Shown one piece after another: positions 2-25,855 of a DNA stretch of 64,000 nucleotides; the first letter of the stretch is position 1, and each line of letters opens with the position of its first letter. The stretch covers positions 1 through 64,000 of the forward strand of contig JAIOAW010000010.1 in assembly GCA_019873625.1 (NCBI GenBank). The letters run 5' to 3'. A model generated the notes under the pieces. The model searched no databases and was not told the origin of the DNA. It was given only the letters and a program-made list of their open reading frames with translations. The position numbers and the translations under genes are program-made. This DNA comes from Chloroflexota bacterium. Lineage in GTDB: Bacteria; Chloroflexota; Anaerolineae; UBA1429.

Positions 2-3000
2 GGCCCGCACTTTGTGGGGGAGGCGGCGACGGCCAAGGTGCAGGCGCAATACTATGCGGGCGGCCCCTTGGCCGGCGCGGAGGTGCATTGGGTGGTGAGC
101 GCCTCGCCGGGCAGTTACCACCCGCCCAAGTGGGAGGACTTCGACTTTGGCATTTGGGCGCCTTGGTGGTTCTCGTTCCGGCGGTGGGGCGAGCCGGCGA
201 TCGAGACGGACCACGTCAAAGAGTTCGATGGCCTGACCGACGCCGCAGGGGTGCACGTCTTGCGCATCGCCTTTGAGGCGGTGGAACCGCCGCGCCCCAC
301 CGTGGTGCGCGCCGAGGCCAGCGTGATGGACGTGAACCGCCAAGCCTGGGCGGCCTCGACGGATATGTTGGTGCACCCCGCCTCGCTCTATGTGGGGCTG
401 CGCAGCCAGCCGATGTTCGTAGAGCGAGGGAAGCCCCTCCGCGTTGAGGCCATCGTGGTGGACCTGGATGGCACCCCCAAGCCGGGCGTGGAGATCGCCC
501 TGCGCGCCGTGCGCCTCAAGTGGCAGTATCTCAAGGGCGAGTGGCAAGAGGTCGAAACGGATGAACAAACCTGCACGGTAACCTCTCAAGCCGAGCCTGT
601 CTCCTGCACCTTCCAGACGCCTACGGGCGGCACCTATCGCCTGAGCGCCACGATCGTAGATGAGCAGGGCCGCCCGAACCTGACCCAAATCACGCGCTGG
701 GTGAGCGGGGGCGAACAGCCCTCGGTGGGGCGCATCGAGCAGGAAGAGGTAACGCTCATCCCCGACCGCGCCGAATATCAGCCCGGCGACGTGGCCCAGA
801 TTCTGGTCCAGGCGCCGTTTGCGCCGGCCGAGGGCATCCTCACCGTGCGGCGTTTGGGGTTGGTGCATGAGGAGCGCTTCCGCATAGAAGGGCCTTCGTA
901 CACGCTCCAGGTGCCCATCACGGAGGATGACATCCCCAACGTGTGGGTGCAGGTGGATCTCGTGGGCGAGGCGCCGCGCCTTGGCCCCGATGGCGCGCCG
1001 GACCCGCGCTTGCCCAAACGGCCGGCCTATGCGAGTGGGAACCTCAAACTGAGCGTCCCGGCCTACGAGCGCACACTGACGGTGGAGGCCACCCCTCGCC
1101 AGGCGGAACTCGAACCGGGCGGCGAGACGACCATTGACCTTCGCGTGCTCGATGCCCAAGGTCGCCCCGTGCGGGGCGCAGAGGTGGCGCTCGTGGTGGT
1201 GGATGAGGCCGTCTTGGCGCTGACGAACTACCAACTGGCCGATCCCATCGGCGTGTTCTACGCCGAGCGCGATGCCGGCGTGAACGATTATCGCTTGCGA
1301 CAGTATGTGCTCCTTGTGAACCCGGAGCAGTTGCTTGACCAGGCTGCGGGGGCGCGCCGGGTGAAGATGATGTCCGCCGTGCCCACCGCGATGCCGGCCC
1401 CTATGGCGACGATGACGGTGGAAATGGCCGAGGCGGCGCCGGGCGCTGAACAGGCGGCGCAGCCTATCCGCCTGCGGAGCGACTTTAACCCGCTGGCCCT
1501 CTTTGCCCCGGAGGTAACCACCGATGCGGATGGGACGGCTTCCGTCTCCGTCAAACTGCCCGATAACCTGACCGAGTACCGCGTGATGGCCGTGGCGGTG
1601 GCCGGGGAACGCCAGTTTGGCAAGGGCGAATCGCGCCTCACGGCGCGCCTGCCCTTGATGGTGCGCCCCTCGGCGCCCCGCTTCCTCAACTTTGGCGATC
1701 GGTTCGAACTGCCCGTCATCCTGCAGAACCAGACGGATGCCCCGCTCGAGGTGCAGGTGGCCGTGCAGGCGGCTAATCTCATCCTCACAGGGAGCGCGGG
1801 CAAAGCGGTTACCGTGCCGGCGCGAGATCGCGTCGAGGTGCGCTTTGGTGCCGCGACCGACCAAGCGGGCACGGCGCGCCTAATGATCGGGGCCGCCTCC
1901 GGCCCCTGGGCCGACGCAGCCCAAGTGACGCTCCCCGTCTATACGCCGGCCACCACGGAGGCCTTTGCCACCTACGGCGTGATAGACCAGGGCGCCATCG
2001 CCCAGCCCATCATCGCGCCGAGCGGGGTCTTTACACAATTCAGCGCGCTAGAGATCACCACCTCCTCGACGGCCCTCCAGGCCCTGACGGATGCCTTCCT
2101 CTACCTGCTCGCCTACCCGTACGAATGCACGGAGCAGATCGCCTCGCGCATCTTGGCGGTGGCCGCCCTGCGAGATGTGCTGGAGGCCTTCCAGGCTGAG
2201 GGTCTGCCCGCGCCCGAGGAGATTGACCGCGCGATGGCGCGCGATATCGAGACGTTGCAGAACCTGCAAAACAGCGATGGGGGCTTCCCCATCTGGACGA
2301 AGGGGCGCGACTCTTGGCCGTTCTACTCTATCCATGCGGCGCACGCCCTGGCCCGCGCCCGCCAAAAGGATTACCCCGTGAGCGAAGAGGCCATTCAGCG
2401 CGCCTTGGCCTATCTGCGAGATATCGAATCCCACTACCCCCATTGGTATAGCCAAGATGTGCGCTACAGCCTTTCGGCCTATGCCCTCTATACGCGCCTT
2501 CAACTGGGCGATGCGGACCCGGCCAAAGCGCGCGCCCTGTTGGATCAGGCCGGTTTGGAGAATCTCCAGCCAGAGGCGCTGGGGTGGATTTACAACGTCC
2601 TTGTGGGAGACGCCGCCTCTCGAGAGGCCCTTCAAAAGATCGAGCGCTACCTGGCCAACCGCGTGGTCGAGACGGCGGGCGCGGCCCACTTCGCCACCTC
2701 TTACCGAGAGGAGGAGGGCTATGTGCTCTTGGCCTCCGACCGCCGCGCCGATGGGATCATCCTCGAGGCGCTCATCAAGGGCCACCCGAAGAGCGACCTC
2801 ATCCCCAAACTCGTGAACAGCCTGTTGGCCCACCGCAAGGCGGGGCGCTGGGGCAACACGCAAGAGAACGTCTTTATCCTCCTCGCCTTGGATCGTTACT
2901 TTGCTACCTTTGAGGCCCAGACGCCCGATTTCGTGGCGCGCGCCTGGCTGGGCGAGGACTATTTGGGGCAGTTCGCCTTCAAAGGCCGCACCAAGGAATA

Positions 3001-3613
3001 TCAGACGCTGAATATTCCGATGGATTACCTCGCTCAAAAGGAGGGCGAGCAAGCCCTCATCCTCAGCAAAGAGGGCCAGGGGCGGCTGTACTATCGCTTG
3101 GGGCTGCGTTACGCGCCCAAAGACCTGCAACTGGCCCCGCTCGATCAGGGGTTCGTGGTGGAACGGCGCTACGAGGCGGTGGATGACCCGGCCGACGTTC
3201 AGCAGGATGCCGAGGGCGTGTGGCACATCAAGGCGGGGGCGCGCGTGCGCGTGCGCCTGACGATGGTGGCCCCTACGCGGCGCTACCACGTGGCGCTGGC
3301 GGATCCGCTCCCGGCGGGCCTCGAACCGCTCAACCCCGCCCTCGCCGTGACGGGGAGTATCCCGCAAGACCCGGCCGATACCTCGCGCGGCGCGTATTGG
3401 TGGTGGCGGTGGACCTGGTACGAGCACCAAAACCTGCGCGATCAGCGGGCTGAGGCCTTCGCTTCGCTCCTGTGGGAGGGCATTCACACCTACACCTACG
3501 TGGCGCGGGCCACCACGCCGGGCGAGTTCATCGTGCCGCCGGCCAAGGCCGAGGAGATGTACGCCCCTGAGACCTTTGGCCGCAGTGGGACGGATCGCGT
3601 CGTCATCGAGTGA
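2..3613 (+). CDS. Alpha-2-macroglobulin family protein, 5' end cut off by the window
   Basis: Large secreted or lipid-anchored protease-trapping protein of the bacterial alpha-2-macroglobulin family. The frame is open from base 2, so the N-terminus, including any signal peptide or lipobox, lies outside the window. Visible are repeated macroglobulin (MG) beta domains, the A2M domain around the LPDNLTEYRVMA stretch, and the thioester motif YECTEQ with its cysteine codon at 2126-2128. An alpha-helical thioester/complement-like domain (LQNLQNSDGGFPIW, then helical repeats) follows. The C-terminal receptor-like domain carries ADPLPAGLEPLNPAL, usual in bacterial members. The family is thought to trap attacking proteases by covalent thioester linkage. 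No pbpC-type transglycosylase partner is visible in the window. The 3' end meets a convergent gene at a shared terminator. Confidence 0.93.
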   Translation, partial: GPHFVGEAATAKVQAQYYAGGPLAGAEVHWVVSASPGSYHPPKWEDFDFGIWAPWWFSFRRWGEPAIETDHVKEFDGLTDAAGVHVLRIAFEAVEPPRPTVVRAEASVMDVNRQAWAASTDMLVHPASLYVGLRSQPMFVERGKPLRVEAIVVDLDGTPKPGVEIALRAVRLKWQYLKGEWQEVETDEQTCTVTSQAEPVSCTFQTPTGGTYRLSATIVDEQGRPNLTQITRWVSGGEQPSVGRIEQEEVTLIPDRAEYQPGDVAQILVQAPFAPAEGILTVRRLGLVHEERFRIEGPSYTLQVPITEDDIPNVWVQVDLVGEAPRLGPDGAPDPRLPKRPAYASGNLKLSVPAYERTLTVEATPRQAELEPGGETTIDLRVLDAQGRPVRGAEVALVVVDEAVLALTNYQLADPIGVFYAERDAGVNDYRLRQYVLLVNPEQLLDQAAGARRVKMMSAVPTAMPAPMATMTVEMAEAAPGAEQAAQPIRLRSDFNPLALFAPEVTTDADGTASVSVKLPDNLTEYRVMAVAVAGERQFGKGESRLTARLPLMVRPSAPRFLNFGDRFELPVILQNQTDAPLEVQVAVQAANLILTGSAGKAVTVPARDRVEVRFGAATDQAGTARLMIGAASGPWADAAQVTLPVYTPATTEAFATYGVIDQGAIAQPIIAPSGVFTQFSALEITTSSTALQALTDAFLYLLAYPYECTEQIASRILAVAALRDVLEAFQAEGLPAPEEIDRAMARDIETLQNLQNSDGGFPIWTKGRDSWPFYSIHAAHALARARQKDYPVSEEAIQRALAYLRDIESHYPHWYSQDVRYSLSAYALYTRLQLGDADPAKARALLDQAGLENLQPEALGWIYNVLVGDAASREALQKIERYLANRVVETAGAAHFATSYREEEGYVLLASDRRADGIILEALIKGHPKSDLIPKLVNSLLAHRKAGRWGNTQENVFILLALDRYFATFEAQTPDFVARAWLGEDYLGQFAFKGRTKEYQTLNIPMDYLAQKEGEQALILSKEGQGRLYYRLGLRYAPKDLQLAPLDQGFVVERRYEAVDDPADVQQDAEGVWHIKAGARVRVRLTMVAPTRRYHVALADPLPAGLEPLNPALAVTGSIPQDPADTSRGAYWWWRWTWYEHQNLRDQRAEAFASLLWEGIHTYTYVARATTPGEFIVPPAKAEEMYAPETFGRSGTDRVVIE

Positions 3614-4958: not shown

Positions 4959-5750
4959 ATGGCCCTGACGATTCAAGAGATGATTGATCGCATCCTAGCC
5001 GAGACGCCCGGCGGCCTGCGCCAGCCCACGGTGGATACCGTCAAGGTGGGCGACCCCTCTCAACCCGTGCGCGGCGTTGTAACGACCTGTATGGCCACGG
5101 TCGCCGTCATCCGCGAGGCCATCTCGCGTAACGCCAATTTTATCATCACGCACGAGCCGACCTTTTACAATCACCTCGACGAGACGGATTGGCTCGCTGA
5201 GGACCCCATCTACCGCGCCAAACGCGCCCTGCTGGAGGAGCACCACCTCGTCGTCTGGCGCTATCACGATCATATCCACTCCCTGCGGCCTGATGGCATC
5301 TTGGCGGGGGTCTTGCGGCAACTCGGCTGGGGGCCGTATGCCGACCCCGAAATCCGCGGGCTGTGCGTGGTGCCGCCCACCTCCCTGTGGAACCTCGTGG
5401 CTATGTTGAGGGAACGCCTCGGCGTCGCGCACGTCAAGGTGTTTGGGGACCCGGAGATGATCTGTCAGCGCATCGGTTTGGCCGTGGGCGCGGCCGGCGG
5501 CCGGATGCAAATCGCCCTCTTGCGGGAGCAAAAACTCGATCTCCTCGTCTGCGGCGAAATCAACGAGTGGGAGACGGCCGAATACGTCCGCGATGCGGAT
5601 CTCTTGGGGCACCGGCAAGCCCTGGTGATCTTGGGGCACGTGCTCAGCGAGGAGCCGGGTATGGCCTGGCTGGCCGGGTGGCTGAGGGAGCGCTTCCCCA
5701 ATGTGCCCATCGTGCACATCCCGGCGGGAGAGGTGTTTGAGTACGTCTAG
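4959..5750 (+). CDS. Nif3-like dinuclear metal centre protein (DUF34)
   Basis: 263-residue member of the Nif3/YbgI (DUF34) family, hexameric proteins that bind two metal ions per subunit; proposed roles include GTP cyclohydrolase-like or metal-insertase chemistry, none settled. The family signature is seen in the N-terminal third: FIITHEPTFYNHLDETDW, with metal-binding His residues, then a second His-rich segment YHDHIHSLRPDGI. The C-terminal half has the other metal-site half (LLVCGEINEWE and VILGHVLSEEPG). The start is set by AGGAGG eight bases upstream. The stop codon overlaps that of the convergent MFS gene by 4 bases. Annotations as a transcriptional regulator are usually wrong for this family. 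Confidence 0.88.
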   Translation: MALTIQEMIDRILAETPGGLRQPTVDTVKVGDPSQPVRGVVTTCMATVAVIREAISRNANFIITHEPTFYNHLDETDWLAEDPIYRAKRALLEEHHLVVWRYHDHIHSLRPDGILAGVLRQLGWGPYADPEIRGLCVVPPTSLWNLVAMLRERLGVAHVKVFGDPEMICQRIGLAVGAAGGRMQIALLREQKLDLLVCGEINEWETAEYVRDADLLGHRQALVILGHVLSEEPGMAWLAGWLRERFPNVPIVHIPAGEVFEYV

Positions 5751-7063
5751 GGGCGGGCGCCATCGCCCGGCTGGGCGAGTTTGACGTCCTCGGCGAGGGG
5801 GGCGGGGGCGCGGGCATCCTCCAGTGTGCGGATGGAGGGGGTGAAAAGCGCCCCGATGCCCAGGGCAAGGGTGACTACGCCGCCCACAATGAACCAGGCC
5901 CGCACGCCCAAGGCATCGGCCACAGGCCCGGCGATGGCCATGCTGATGGGCGCGATGCCCGTCGTCAGGCTCACCACGAGCGTGAGCACCCGCCCGTGCA
6001 TCTCGGGGGCTACGAGTTTTTGGAGGAGGGCGATCCCCGCGCCGGTTACCATCGTATATAGCGCCGCGCCCAGGAACATCCCGGCCAGGGCCAGGGCAAA
6101 CCCCCGTGCGGGCGCGGCGCCCACCATCAAGATGCCCACCCCCAGGCCGATGGTCCCCGCGATGACCGTCATCGAGCGGCGGCGGAAGCCTCCCCAGGTG
6201 CCCAAAATCAGCCCGCCCGCGATGATGCCCACGCCCCAGGCGGAGTTCAGCCAGCCCAAGTGGAAGGCCGCCCCGCCGAAGGCCTTTGTTACCAAGATGG
6301 GCGTGAGGGATATCGCCGGGTAGGCGAAGAAACTGATGACCATCGAGAGGATGATCACGGCGTTCATCCCCGGCCAGTGCCACACGTAGCGGAATCCCTC
6401 TTGGATATCGGCCCAGATGGAGGTGGGCAGGATGCCCTCGGCTGTGCGCCGCTGAGGTTCGGGGATGGGCGTGAAGAGGAGCGGGCCGATGGCCACGCAT
6501 GCTGTCACAACGTCAATGGCCATCACCCCATGCATAGGTAGGAGCGTGAGGAGCAGCGCCCCCAAAGGGGGCGAGACGATGCGCACCGCGCCGAGCACCG
6601 TCTGGTTCAGCCCCGAAATGCGCGGCAGATGCTTCTCCGGCACCATCAGCGCGGTGGAGGCCTGCGCGGCTGGCAGGTGAAAACACCCCCCGATGGCGCG
6701 CGCCAACATAATGAGGTAGACGTGCCCCACGCGCGCCGCGCCGCGCCAGTAAAGGATGGCCATCCACAGCGAAAAGAGGGCGATGAGTCCATCCGCCAAG
6801 ATCATCACCCGGCGGCGGCTCCAGCGATCCACCAACGCGCCGGCGAACGGCCCCAAGACCACGTTCGGCAGGATGGTAAAGAGCGTCCCCATAGCGAGCA
6901 CTGTGGCCGACCCCGTCCGCGCGGTGAGCCACCAGACGAGGGCAAACCCCGCGATGGAACTGCCAAAGAGCGAAATTTGCTGGCCCGTCCAGATCAGCAA
7001 AAAACGCTTGCGCCAATCGCCATCCTTGGGCAACTGTGGCCATCGCACGGGGAATGTGCTCAT
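5747..7063 (-). CDS. Major facilitator superfamily exporter (MFS_3 / macrolide-efflux type)
   Basis: 438-residue integral membrane transporter with about 12 hydrophobic segments. It begins RKRFLLIWTGQQISLFGSSI, typical of the MFS_3 group (MefA and enterobactin-exporter relatives), and has the cytoplasmic loop motif GALVDRWSRRRVMI between helices 2 and 3. Substrate is unknown; a proton-driven drug or metabolite efflux role is inferred from the subfamily. The gene lies 26 bases downstream of the carboligase gene on the same strand and may be co-transcribed, but nothing links the two functionally. Its stop overlaps that of the convergent Nif3 gene. Confidence 0.88.
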   Translation of the reverse strand: MSTFPVRWPQLPKDGDWRKRFLLIWTGQQISLFGSSIAGFALVWWLTARTGSATVLAMGTLFTILPNVVLGPFAGALVDRWSRRRVMILADGLIALFSLWMAILYWRGAARVGHVYLIMLARAIGGCFHLPAAQASTALMVPEKHLPRISGLNQTVLGAVRIVSPPLGALLLTLLPMHGVMAIDVVTACVAIGPLLFTPIPEPQRRTAEGILPTSIWADIQEGFRYVWHWPGMNAVIILSMVISFFAYPAISLTPILVTKAFGGAAFHLGWLNSAWGVGIIAGGLILGTWGGFRRRSMTVIAGTIGLGVGILMVGAAPARGFALALAGMFLGAALYTMVTGAGIALLQKLVAPEMHGRVLTLVVSLTTGIAPISMAIAGPVADALGVRAWFIVGGVVTLALGIGALFTPSIRTLEDARAPAPLAEDVKLAQPGDGARP

Positions 7064-7089: not shown

Positions 7090-8763
7090 TTATAGGTTGA
7101 ACTCGCGCACGGCGTCGAGCGAGGCCCCCATGGAGGCATCGGCCTCGCGCTCTACGAGGATATCAATCACGGCGGGCTTGCCGCTTTCCACGGCGCGCTG
7201 CAGGGCGCCGCGAATCTCCTCGGGGCGCGTAACGCGTTCCGCATAGGCGCCAAAGGCCCTCGCCAGGGCGGGGATATCTACCCCCAGCCCATCATAGGTC
7301 AAATCTACGCCGTATTCGTACTCATAGGCGTAGCGCTGGTTCTGCCGAATGAGGCTCAGATAGCCGTTGTTGACCACCACTACAATGATGGGCACCTTGT
7401 GCTGGCAGGCCATAGCGAGTTCTTCGACCATAAACATAAAACCGCCGTCGCCCATCACGGCCACACAGGTGGCATCTGGGCGGGCGATTTTGGCGCCGAT
7501 AGCGGCGGGCAGGTCATAGCCCAGGGTGCCTGCCCCGCCGGAGGCCAGATAGGTGCGCGGGGCGTTGGTCATCTGAAATTGGCCGGACCAAATCTGCGTC
7601 AACCCACAGCCGGTGGTATAAATCGTGTTGGGGCCAAAGAACGCGTTGAGTTCTTTGTAAACGCGCATCGGCTTGATGGGCACTTGGTCGTAATCCATAC
7701 GGCGGGCGAGGGCGGCGCGATCTTGCGGGATGCGCGCGACGCGCGGTTTGGGCGGCAGGGGCGGGGTGCGGCGCTTGGCCTCCTCGAGGAGCGCTTCGAC
7801 GGCCAAACCCGCATCGGCTACGATGCCTAGTTCCGTGGGCACAATGCGCCCGATGTGCTCCGGTTCGACGTTGATGTGGATAAAGCGGCGCCCCTTGGTA
7901 TAGACGTCCAGCCGCCCCGTGTGGCGATCGCTGAAGCGGCAGCCGATGCCCAAGACGAGGTCCGAGCCAAGGAAGAACTGGTTGCCGAAGGGCGAGCCGA
8001 CCTGGATGCCGATGTGCCCCACGTGGAGGGGGTGCTCCGCCGGGATGCCCCCCGTCGCCATATACGTCGTGATCACCGGCAGAGAGAGGTACTCGGCGAA
8101 TTCGACGCATTTTTCCGCCGCCCCGGCCAAGAGCACGCCACCCCCCATAATCATCACGGGGTTTTCGGCCTTCAAGAGGAGGTCTATGGCGCGCGCGATC
8201 TGTGCCCTATCGGGCGGTGTGCGCATAATGGGCAAAGGCGCATCCGCCGCCGGGTCATAGGGGATGTCGGCCAGTTGCACATCAAGGGGCAAATCAATGA
8301 GCACGGGGCCGGGCCGCCCCTCGCGGGCGAGGCGGAAGGCTTGGCGCATAATCGGCGGCACTTGGGTCGGTTCGGTGATGCACCAGGCCCCTTTGCAGAC
8401 GGGCCGCGCGATGGTGGCGATATCCACGCACTGGAAGGCCTCTTTGCCCAACTGGGCGCGCACATTCTGGCCAGTGATGGCGATGAGGGCCATCGAGTCA
8501 ATCTGCGCGGTGTAGAGGCCGGTCACAAAGTTCGTGGCCGCCGGCCCGGAGGTGCAGATGGCCAGCGCCATCTTGCCTGAGGCGCGAAAGTAGCCATCTG
8601 CCGCGTGGACGGCGCCCTCTTCGTGGCGGGCCAAGTAATGTTTGATCTGTTTCGATTGGCCCAGGTACTCGTACACCGGGTTGATGGCCGCGCCGGGGAT
8701 GCCAAAGGCCGCCTCGATGCCCTCGCTTTCCAAAATACGCACCACCACTTCTGCAACGCGCAT
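7090..8763 (-). CDS. gcl: Glyoxylate carboligase-like thiamine diphosphate enzyme
   Basis: 557-residue ThDP-dependent enzyme of the acetolactate synthase superfamily. It is closest to glyoxylate carboligase, which joins two glyoxylates into tartronate semialdehyde with loss of CO2. Gcl-like stretches are PGAAINP, GKEAFQCVDI, PIKPMRVYKELNAFFG, NNGYLSLIRQNQRY and a C-terminal ASMGASLDAVREF. The ThDP-binding motif starts at GDGG and runs to the NN pair. In E. coli Gcl the usual catalytic glutamate is replaced by valine (V51). Here the aligned position in ARHEEGAVH is Glu48, so the substrate may differ (another 2-oxoacid carboligation is possible). None of the usual glyoxylate-pathway neighbours (hyi, glxR, glxK) is nearby. 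Confidence 0.85.
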   Translation of the reverse strand: MRVAEVVVRILESEGIEAAFGIPGAAINPVYEYLGQSKQIKHYLARHEEGAVHAADGYFRASGKMALAICTSGPAATNFVTGLYTAQIDSMALIAITGQNVRAQLGKEAFQCVDIATIARPVCKGAWCITEPTQVPPIMRQAFRLAREGRPGPVLIDLPLDVQLADIPYDPAADAPLPIMRTPPDRAQIARAIDLLLKAENPVMIMGGGVLLAGAAEKCVEFAEYLSLPVITTYMATGGIPAEHPLHVGHIGIQVGSPFGNQFFLGSDLVLGIGCRFSDRHTGRLDVYTKGRRFIHINVEPEHIGRIVPTELGIVADAGLAVEALLEEAKRRTPPLPPKPRVARIPQDRAALARRMDYDQVPIKPMRVYKELNAFFGPNTIYTTGCGLTQIWSGQFQMTNAPRTYLASGGAGTLGYDLPAAIGAKIARPDATCVAVMGDGGFMFMVEELAMACQHKVPIIVVVVNNGYLSLIRQNQRYAYEYEYGVDLTYDGLGVDIPALARAFGAYAERVTRPEEIRGALQRAVESGKPAVIDILVEREADASMGASLDAVREFNL

Positions 8764-8801: not shown

Positions 8802-8830
8802 ATTATACCCGACTCTAGCCCAGCGCCAAA
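8802..8830 (-). promoter_or_regulatory. Sigma70-type promoter for the carboligase gene
   Basis: On the minus strand, TTTGGC (8825-8830), 17-bp spacer, then a perfect TATAAT (8802-8807), about 40 bases before the gcl start codon. Confidence 0.6.
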
Positions 8831-24856: not shown

Positions 24857-25855
24857 CTAGCGGCGCCGCCGCGCCATCACGGCGGGGTTGGCCACGAACT
24901 CTGGAAGCTCCCCACGGGCCAGGGCCAGCGCCGTTTCGCCCACTCGGCGGTAAAGCGCTGCAAAAGTCGCATCCGCGTAGGAGGCCGAATGGGGCGTGAG
25001 GATGACGTTTTCCATACGGCAGAACGGGTGATCGGGCGCGATGGGTTCCTTTTCGAACACATCCAGCCCGGCGCCGGCGATTTTGCCCTCTTGCAGGGCC
25101 GCGATGAGATCGGCCTCGTTCACCACGGCGCCTCGGCTCGTGTTGATGAAATAGGCCGTGGGCTTCATCTGCGAGAAAAAGCGCGCATCGAGCATTCCCC
25201 GCGTGTGGGCATTGAGCGGCAAATGGCAAGAGACGTAATCGGAACGGGCCGCGAGTTCTTCAAGGGATACCGGCTCCACGCCGTACTCCGCAAAGACCTC
25301 TTGGGCCACGTAGGGGTCATAGGCGATAACGTGCATCTCGAGCGCCTGGGCGCGCCGCGCCAGCGCGCGGGCGATGTTCCCAAAGGCGATAAGGCCCAAC
25401 GTCTCCCCATGGATCGGCCCCATCGGCGAATTGATGGCCCGCGCGGCGGCCCAGCCTTCCGTGCGGATGAGCCGATCGTGCCGAGTGATCTTTTTGGCGC
25501 AGGCCAGGAGCAGCGCCAGGGCGTGGTTGGCCACCTCGCGCACGCAAAAATCGGGAAAGTTGACCACCATCACGCCGAATTCCGTGGCCGCGTCCAAATC
25601 TATCGTATCTACGCCGATGCCATAGCGGATGACGGCCTTGAGCCGGGGCGCCCCAGCAAAGACCTCGCGCGTGTATGGTTCGCTATAACACAGGGCGATA
25701 TCCGCATCGCGCACGGCTTCCAGCACCTCCTGCGGCGTGGTGCAGCGCCCGCGCATAAAGAAGGCGATATCCGGCGCGTTGAGCGCGGCGCGCTCAGCCA
25801 CGAGGGGCGCATCGGGCCGCGCCCCGGTATGGACGATGATGATCTTCTCTGGCAT
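24857..25855 (-). CDS. D-isomer-specific 2-hydroxyacid dehydrogenase
   Basis: 332-residue NAD-linked dehydrogenase of the D-glycerate/phosphoglycerate group. Catalytic residues are seen as Arg in INTSRGAVVNE, Glu in GLDVFEKEP and His in VILTPHSASYADATF. The nucleotide loop reads GLIAFGNIARAL, where the usual GxGxxG has alanine at the first and third glycine positions, a variant that may shift cofactor preference. ATG 25855 is preceded by GGGGAGATT; an in-frame start 12 codons upstream has no site. Substrate unknown, perhaps glyoxylate/hydroxypyruvate. Divergent from the restriction-modification pair. Confidence 0.9.
   Translation of the reverse strand: MPEKIIIVHTGARPDAPLVAERAALNAPDIAFFMRGRCTTPQEVLEAVRDADIALCYSEPYTREVFAGAPRLKAVIRYGIGVDTIDLDAATEFGVMVVNFPDFCVREVANHALALLLACAKKITRHDRLIRTEGWAAARAINSPMGPIHGETLGLIAFGNIARALARRAQALEMHVIAYDPYVAQEVFAEYGVEPVSLEELAARSDYVSCHLPLNAHTRGMLDARFFSQMKPTAYFINTSRGAVVNEADLIAALQEGKIAGAGLDVFEKEPIAPDHPFCRMENVILTPHSASYADATFAALYRRVGETALALARGELPEFVANPAVMARRRR

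Follow-up and report, generated by a model that had tools for sequence, protein, structure and literature searches.

The window, by which we mean the whole 64-kb stretch of DNA that was analysed, carries an uninterrupted open reading frame on the reverse strand at 7090-8763 that runs from ATG to TAA and encodes 557 amino acids. The predicted protein contains the TPP_enzyme N, M and C domains, all three above their Pfam cut-offs, which places it in the ThDP-dependent decarboxylase superfamily; on its ORF, domains and model matches it is a homologue of glyoxylate carboligase (Gcl) of the Glu-type, with glutamate at the position of Val51 in E. coli Gcl. The codon for this residue, Glu48, was computed from the ORF start and the alignment to lie at 8620-8622 on the reverse strand. 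A TATAAT that reads by eye as a possible -10 box is located on the same strand at 8802-8807, 39-44 bases ahead of the ATG, and a Shine-Dalgarno-like AAGGAGG can be read between the two. An MFS transporter gene (5747-7063, reverse strand, 438 aa) starts 26 bases past the stop codon of the Gcl-like gene and, from this spacing, is perhaps co-transcribed with it; a search of 45 further loci, Glu- and Val-type, found no homologue of the transporter at E<=1e-3. A large protein encoded at 14-3613 resembles, by eye, the alpha-2-macroglobulin family. All 64 kb were searched with 16 query proteins, comprising pathway enzymes of relatives, an IclR regulator and an iron-containing alcohol dehydrogenase, and the one match to come up at E<=1e-4 was a D-2-hydroxyacid dehydrogenase of generic type (24983-25771, 34% identical); an earlier note on this DNA, which had reported no glyoxylate-pathway genes nearby, was thus right as far as was searched.

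ThDP enzymes as a rule depend on an activating glutamate, and Gcl is the stock example of one that does without it. In phmmer alignments with E. coli Gcl (2pan, 8beo), ARHEEGAVH of the window protein (with Glu48) falls on ARHVEGASH, with no gaps around the site and an identical frame (ARHxEGA). In a 62-row alignment the Glu48 column is the column of E. coli Val51 and holds Glu in 30/30 Glu-type proteins, Val in 12/12 Val-type proteins and Glu in 20/20 acetolactate synthases (ALS). Both alignments bear out the equivalence of Glu48 and Val51 claimed in the earlier note, and the misplacement that it had named as grounds for doubt did not appear, the two columns coinciding.

The statement that the rest of the protein reads like Gcl also held. 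Among solved structures the best matches are to Gcl, with six distinct sequences at 502 to 497 bits, and an acetolactate synthase comes next at 324 bits; the 12 residues that are fixed (>=90%) in all four Gcl groups and unlike ALS (E52, Y88, E112, L162, Q258, Y292, I398, A418, L421, F451, L478 and I479 in E. coli numbering) are present 12/12. Letters of Gcl and not of ALS include Glu49 (E52), His281 (H285), Ala411 (A418), Leu414 (L421), Leu471 (L478) and Ile472 (I479), position 475 is not Trp, and Arg280 (R284) is common to ALS as well; the separating residues presumably line the substrate pocket. An AlphaFold2 model built with 16 sequences (pLDDT 81.1, pTM 0.87) was searched with Foldseek, and ranks 1-7 were Gcl structures (E 4.7e-56 to 2.9e-53), followed by AHAS (2.6e-45). 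The top two NCBIfam models are both Gcl models and both fall below their cut-offs, PRK11269 with 680 bits (cut-off 791) and TIGR01504 with 577 bits (cut-off 711), for which E. coli Gcl scores 1208 and 1282, respectively; the third is the ALS model TIGR00118, also below cut-off (502.6 vs 538.35). Measured as a textbook Val-type Gcl, the window protein therefore falls short in the residue at the site (Glu48) and in both NCBIfam equivalog cut-offs; measured as an ALS large subunit, it falls short in the TIGR00118 cut-off, in membership of the ALS clade and in the pocket Trp.

Relatives were collected from several sets of sequences. A pattern-based scan of genome_contigs, which picks up close relatives only, returned 20 loci from Chloroflexota, two Moorella species, Mahella, Bacillota MAGs, a Spirochaetales MAG and an Oscillospiraceae MAG. 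The site is covered in 19/20 of these and is Glu in 19/19, so Glu48 is not a sequencing accident. In L058 the start lies downstream of the site, and the Oscillospiraceae copy (L055:163-1818), which has an in-frame stop in the codon right after the Glu, is either a pseudogene or an assembly error. From 400 genomes drawn evenly across the phylum (E<=1e-110, at most 3 candidates scored per genome), 38 gave matches; 13 of them (the window is one) share at least 49% identity and belong to the Gcl family, with Glu in 13/13, and the other 25 are 37-42% identical and ALS-like (17 of these were fetched). The 396 class genomes, also with at most 3 candidates scored per genome, gave 13 matches at E<=1e-130, again with Glu in 13/13; the class and phylum sets overlap, and several genome_contigs loci are the same records as in these sets. 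A plasmid search returned 134 records at E<=1e-100, and 195 were returned at E<=1e-90 with the Nonomuraea protein as query. Thirteen Gcl-type plasmid records were read at the site, with Glu in Enterococcus gilvus and Nonomuraea and Val in 11. The E. coli copy and the P. aeruginosa plasmid copy are both Val-type.

The main tree was inferred with IQ-TREE under a mixture model from 62 proteins (the window protein, 29 other Glu-type, 12 Val-type and 20 ALS), with the trait column removed and the root placed on acetolactate synthase. Gcl, Glu- and Val-types together, is separated from the 20 ALS with support of 100/100, and the Val-type clade is likewise supported at 100/100. The window subclade, EA, comprises 11 Chloroflexota (100/99) and joins Moorella, Mahella, Bacillota, Spirochaetales and E. 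gilvus (100/97), with Moorella and E. gilvus bracketing it. A second Glu-type branch, EB, holds 6 Chloroflexota (100/99). The third, EC (5 Chloroflexota and Nonomuraea), groups with the Val-type at 100/99 and is the Glu-type branch nearest to it; EB, EC and Val-type together are supported at 93/82. A quick tree with further outgroups has the same order (Gcl apart from ALS 100, EC with Val-type 100, EB with EC and Val-type 62), and the tree of a third set, in which ALS has 9 rows, groups EC with Val-type at 100/100. Sixteen rows of the quick tree were dropped from the main tree, namely 15 outgroup rows (L078 included) and the long ALS-like row L138. In no tree are L017 and L055-L058 (partial or broken), duplicate records of a genome, L068 (from EC, with Glu), L143-L146, L129, L006 and many ALS-like loci. 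L078, from genome G293 of the same phylum, is a long-branch Glu-bearing protein without an NCBIfam match at 1e-150; the quick tree places it as sister to all of Gcl.

On these trees a single change from Glu to Val, on the Val-type stem, is enough. AU tests do not reject a topology that unites all Glu-types in a single clade with the Val-type as sister (p 0.159, lnL 15.8 worse; in the third set p 0.301, lnL 11.3 worse), nor EC as one clade (p 0.544), and the sister of the Val-type may be L065 alone or all of EC. Under either topology parsimony makes Val the derived state, because Glu is found in 20/20 outgroup rows and in all Glu-types. Among columns that are at least 80% conserved in ALS, EC, Val-type and EA plus its Bacillota relatives, 7 have Val-type agreeing with EC and EA agreeing with ALS and 0 have Val-type agreeing with ALS and EA with EC, which agrees with the Val-type being nested among Glu-types. 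Seven columns hold a letter peculiar to the Val-type (V51, D82, D113, M150, W281, V299 and A399) and keep the ALS letter in EA and EC; EB retains the ALS letter at five of these seven positions, and E. coli is an exception at 281, where it has Phe. The outgroup and the tree indicate that Glu was retained, and never lost, in the window lineage. A phylogeny of Gcl-like proteins scored for this residue, as the earlier note had proposed, thus puts Glu- and Val-types in one clade (100/100) with Val arising in one stem change; its description of the glutamate as restored has to be replaced by retained, since Glu is in the outgroup and all Glu-types and one change explains Val.

Gene context was compared by searching 46 loci, with flanks from nothing to about 10 kb and the window represented by its first 23 kb, with 16 query proteins taken from relatives' loci; the window's genome and a Val-type locus supplied one query each, and donors of queries match themselves by construction. 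Pathway genes are present at 6/6 EC loci examined (L068 lies outside the set). Two Chloroflexota loci (L103, L104) have hyi-glxR-Gcl adjoining glycolate oxidase, Nonomuraea (L089) has hyi-glxR-Gcl, L102 has urate/allantoin genes around Gcl without glxR, L105 has urate/allantoin genes around Gcl plus glxR, and L070 has glxR-Gcl-glycerate kinase. In L102 the urate/allantoin genes exceed NCBIfam cut-offs, as do the ones scanned in L105, the L105 glxR and the L070 glycerate kinase; hyi, glxR and glcD of L103 have these as their best NCBIfam models yet fall below cut-off, and the context of L104 and L089 rests on tblastn. The three EC proteins that were scanned all pass PRK11269 (838, 895 and 855; cut-off 791) and all fall below TIGR01504 (709, 707 and 671; cut-off 711). 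The proteins of EA (L012), EB (L059), Moorella and E. gilvus are below both NCBIfam Gcl cut-offs.

In the wider window clade (Bacillota/Spirochaetota/Enterococcus), pathway genes are present at 3/9 loci, the two Moorella and E. gilvus. Moorella stamsii and M. sulfitireducens have Gcl-hyi-glxR, with hyi at 373 and 369 bits (cut-off 353; a 2-oxo-tetronate isomerase model passes too) and glxR at 442 and 450 bits (cut-off 341). The M. stamsii Glu-type Gcl (L049:6001-7671) passes the ALS model TIGR00118 (554.8 vs 538.35), a likely ALS misannotation, as the gene sits in a gcl-hyi-glxR cluster. The E. gilvus plasmid has the order allantoin permease-allB-MFS-PucR-IclR-Gcl-TIM barrel-D-2-hydroxyacid dehydrogenase-glycerate kinase, in which the glycerate kinase exceeds its NCBIfam cut-off, the dehydrogenase has no match over cut-off and nothing in NCBIfam matches the TIM barrel at 1e-20. 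Three others of the nine loci have a distant TIM barrel only (25-29%), and an IclR regulator, of a family that also matches AllR beside E. coli gcl, is found at 4/9. No pathway genes were detected at the 13 loci of the window subclade (four contigs < 6 kb) or at the 6 loci of EB (one < 6 kb), save a generic D-2-hydroxyacid dehydrogenase (29%) in L101. Val-type controls have hyi or glxR at 10/12 loci; one has HIUase only and one nothing.

Two other kinds of neighbour recur. Iron-containing alcohol dehydrogenases adjoin or lie near Glu-type Gcl at L041:4101-5270, L047:1607-2836, L048:4769-5926 and L101:4955-6130, and might stand in for GlxR as tartronate-semialdehyde reductase. A protein of ~880 aa adjoins Glu-type Gcl in two Chloroflexota branches (L151:8045-10687 and L097:1733-4426), and a piece of it lies 4 kb from Glu-type Gcl in Mahella (L051:11865-13664); the L151 and L097 copies are 59% identical, and the L051 piece is 32% identical to L151. 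No Pfam match was found at 1e-6 for the L151, L097 and L051 copies and no PDB match for the L151 copy. In L151, alpha-L-arabinofuranosidases flank the pair of Gcl and ~880-aa protein, which may be an undescribed glycan-active enzyme. It was considered as a general partner of Gcl and discarded, being present in only 5/396 class genomes and in 1/13 Gcl holders among those.

Outside contig C10, which carries the window, the same genome encodes a GlxR over cut-off (342.8 vs 340.75 bits; best match on contig C30) and a MOFRL glycerate kinase (C23), and by eye the neighbours of these two genes show nothing suggestive. Its one GlcD match (402 bits) is below the 567.9 cut-off. Among 41 genomes, glxR is over cut-off in 5/9 holders of the Glu-type gene vs 14/32 non-holders, MOFRL glycerate kinase is present in 8/9 vs 26/32, and Hyi is over cut-off in 0/41. 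The genomic glxR and MOFRL kinase permit the pathway and are no argument for it, because they are equally common in non-holders; the phylogenetic profile of downstream enzymes across the 41 relatives was set aside as uninformative for the same reason. A separate ALS in the window's genome (L135) lies inside the ALS clade.

Gene context and tree placement argue for Gcl function of the Glu-types, which probably produce tartronate semialdehyde, because pathway genes are found at the EC (6/6), Moorella and E. gilvus loci. The window subclade, with no pathway neighbour of its own at 13 loci, would by its bracketing between Moorella and E. gilvus use glyoxylate too. We consider it quite likely that the gene at 7090-8763 codes for a Glu-type glyoxylate carboligase (tartronate-semialdehyde synthase) that has kept the ancestral ThDP-activating glutamate. 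The activating glutamate of ThDP enzymes bonds N1' and promotes the imino tautomer and the ylide. Following this established ThDP chemistry, in the window protein Glu48 would hydrogen-bond N1' of the ThDP aminopyrimidine and favour the imino tautomer, giving the C2 ylide; glyoxylate would add to C2 and lose CO2 to form the enamine, which would attack a second glyoxylate to yield tartronate semialdehyde, to be converted to phosphoglycerate via a reductase and glycerate kinase. Val51 of the textbook Gcl would have arisen by one replacement, on the stem leading to the Val-type. Several Glu-bearing relatives sit in glyoxylate operons, so the loss of Glu looks like a later event in one branch and not a rule of the family. 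It seems reasonably likely that Gcl arose and worked with the canonical glutamate and that Glu51 was lost once, late, on the Val-type stem along with several other branch-specific replacements, leaving two natural solutions to one reaction in living bacteria.

A reading of the window protein as the catalytic subunit of acetolactate synthase, or as a generic 2-oxoacid decarboxylase, could point to the canonical Glu, to the mostly ALS models that follow the two Gcl ones and to the Moorella relative that passes TIGR00118, and is nonetheless very improbable: the window protein lies outside ALS at 100/100, and not inside it, the outcome that the earlier note had named as refuting its reading, scores below the TIGR00118 cut-off itself, has none of the ALS pocket Trp, Met and Val, and shares its genome with a distinct ALS (L135) in the ALS clade. 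No more credible is a Gcl ancestor that had lost Glu, with the Glu-types regaining it. The AU tests leave room for the Glu-types as a single clade, but by reasoning a regain would cost two changes vs one with such a topology too, and still more on the best tree, and six more columns peculiar to the Val-type (82, 113, 150, 281, 299 and 399) keep the ALS letter in EA and EC, with EB agreeing at four of the six and E. coli keeping Phe at 281.

A better-founded rival, though still an unlikely one, is that the window subclade is a Glu-type carboligase shifted to another substrate (e.g. glycolaldehyde, hydroxypyruvate or formaldehyde from sugar breakdown) and that true Gcl is confined to EC, Moorella and Enterococcus. 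The lack of pathway genes (present at 0/13 window-subclade and 0/6 EB loci), the iron-containing alcohol dehydrogenases in the gene's vicinity at L041, L047, L048 and L101, the arabinofuranosidases on both sides in L151 and residues 386 (Cys for Ile393) and 385, unlike those of Val-type Gcl, would all fit such a shift. However, the pocket residues of Gcl and not of ALS are kept (L414, L471 and I472; position 475 is not Trp), and Cys386 is likewise found in 7/7 Bacillota/Spirochaetota/Enterococcus rows, including Moorella and E. gilvus with their pathway context. The earlier note had left a choice between an ancestral-type Gcl and a carboligase with other substrates; the rooted tree, the 12 residues and the relatives' operons favour the ancestral type, and the second option keeps some probability for the window subclade, given a pathway gene in 0/13 loci.

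The 2008 paper by Kaplun is the key work on Gcl, and Streptococcus allantoicus is reportedly an old source of Gcl activity. In a 2012 family-wide analysis, standard position 51 of the superfamily is given as Glu in 94% and Val in 3%, and Val at this position is called characteristic of the entire Gcl family (PMC3534367); if the Glu-types are Gcl, they contradict that statement. Activities of P. aeruginosa Gcl and GlxR in vitro are described in PMC12694930. PMC8092247, which cites Moorella sp. too, reports Gcl as much more abundant in dichloroacetate-grown 'Ca. Dichloromethanomonas', with glyoxylate an intermediate. No description of a Glu-bearing Gcl was found in the open-access literature among the matches listed, nor in the available portions of PMC8092247, PMC3534367, PMC6270654 and PMC12694930. 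A natural Glu-type lineage is the missing comparison for what losing Glu gained and whether the accompanying replacements were needed. For annotation, the NCBIfam models under-call some Glu-type proteins or, as in Moorella, label them acetolactate synthase.

Compared with known systems, the window protein shares with E. coli Gcl (PDB 2pan; EC 4.1.1.47) the fold, the clade, 45% identity and the residues that separate Gcl from ALS, and some Glu-type relatives also share the operon partners hyi, glxR, glycerate kinase and allantoin genes. It differs from E. coli Gcl in length (557 vs 593 aa) and at Glu48/Val51, Asp279/Asn283, Trp392/Ala399, Asn78/Asp82, Ala109/Asp113, Cys386/Ile393 and Asp417/Thr424. 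The ALS (acetohydroxyacid synthase) large subunit has the canonical Glu, ThDP and fold in common with the window protein but is only 33-40% identical to it, has Gln beside the Glu and a Met/Met/Val/Trp pocket, and forms a separate clade. The EC proteins of Chloroflexota and Nonomuraea, of which the three scanned pass PRK11269, belong to the same family as the window protein and have Glu at the site, whereas they are 49-55% identical to it, have the pathway context and form the branch closest to the Val-type.
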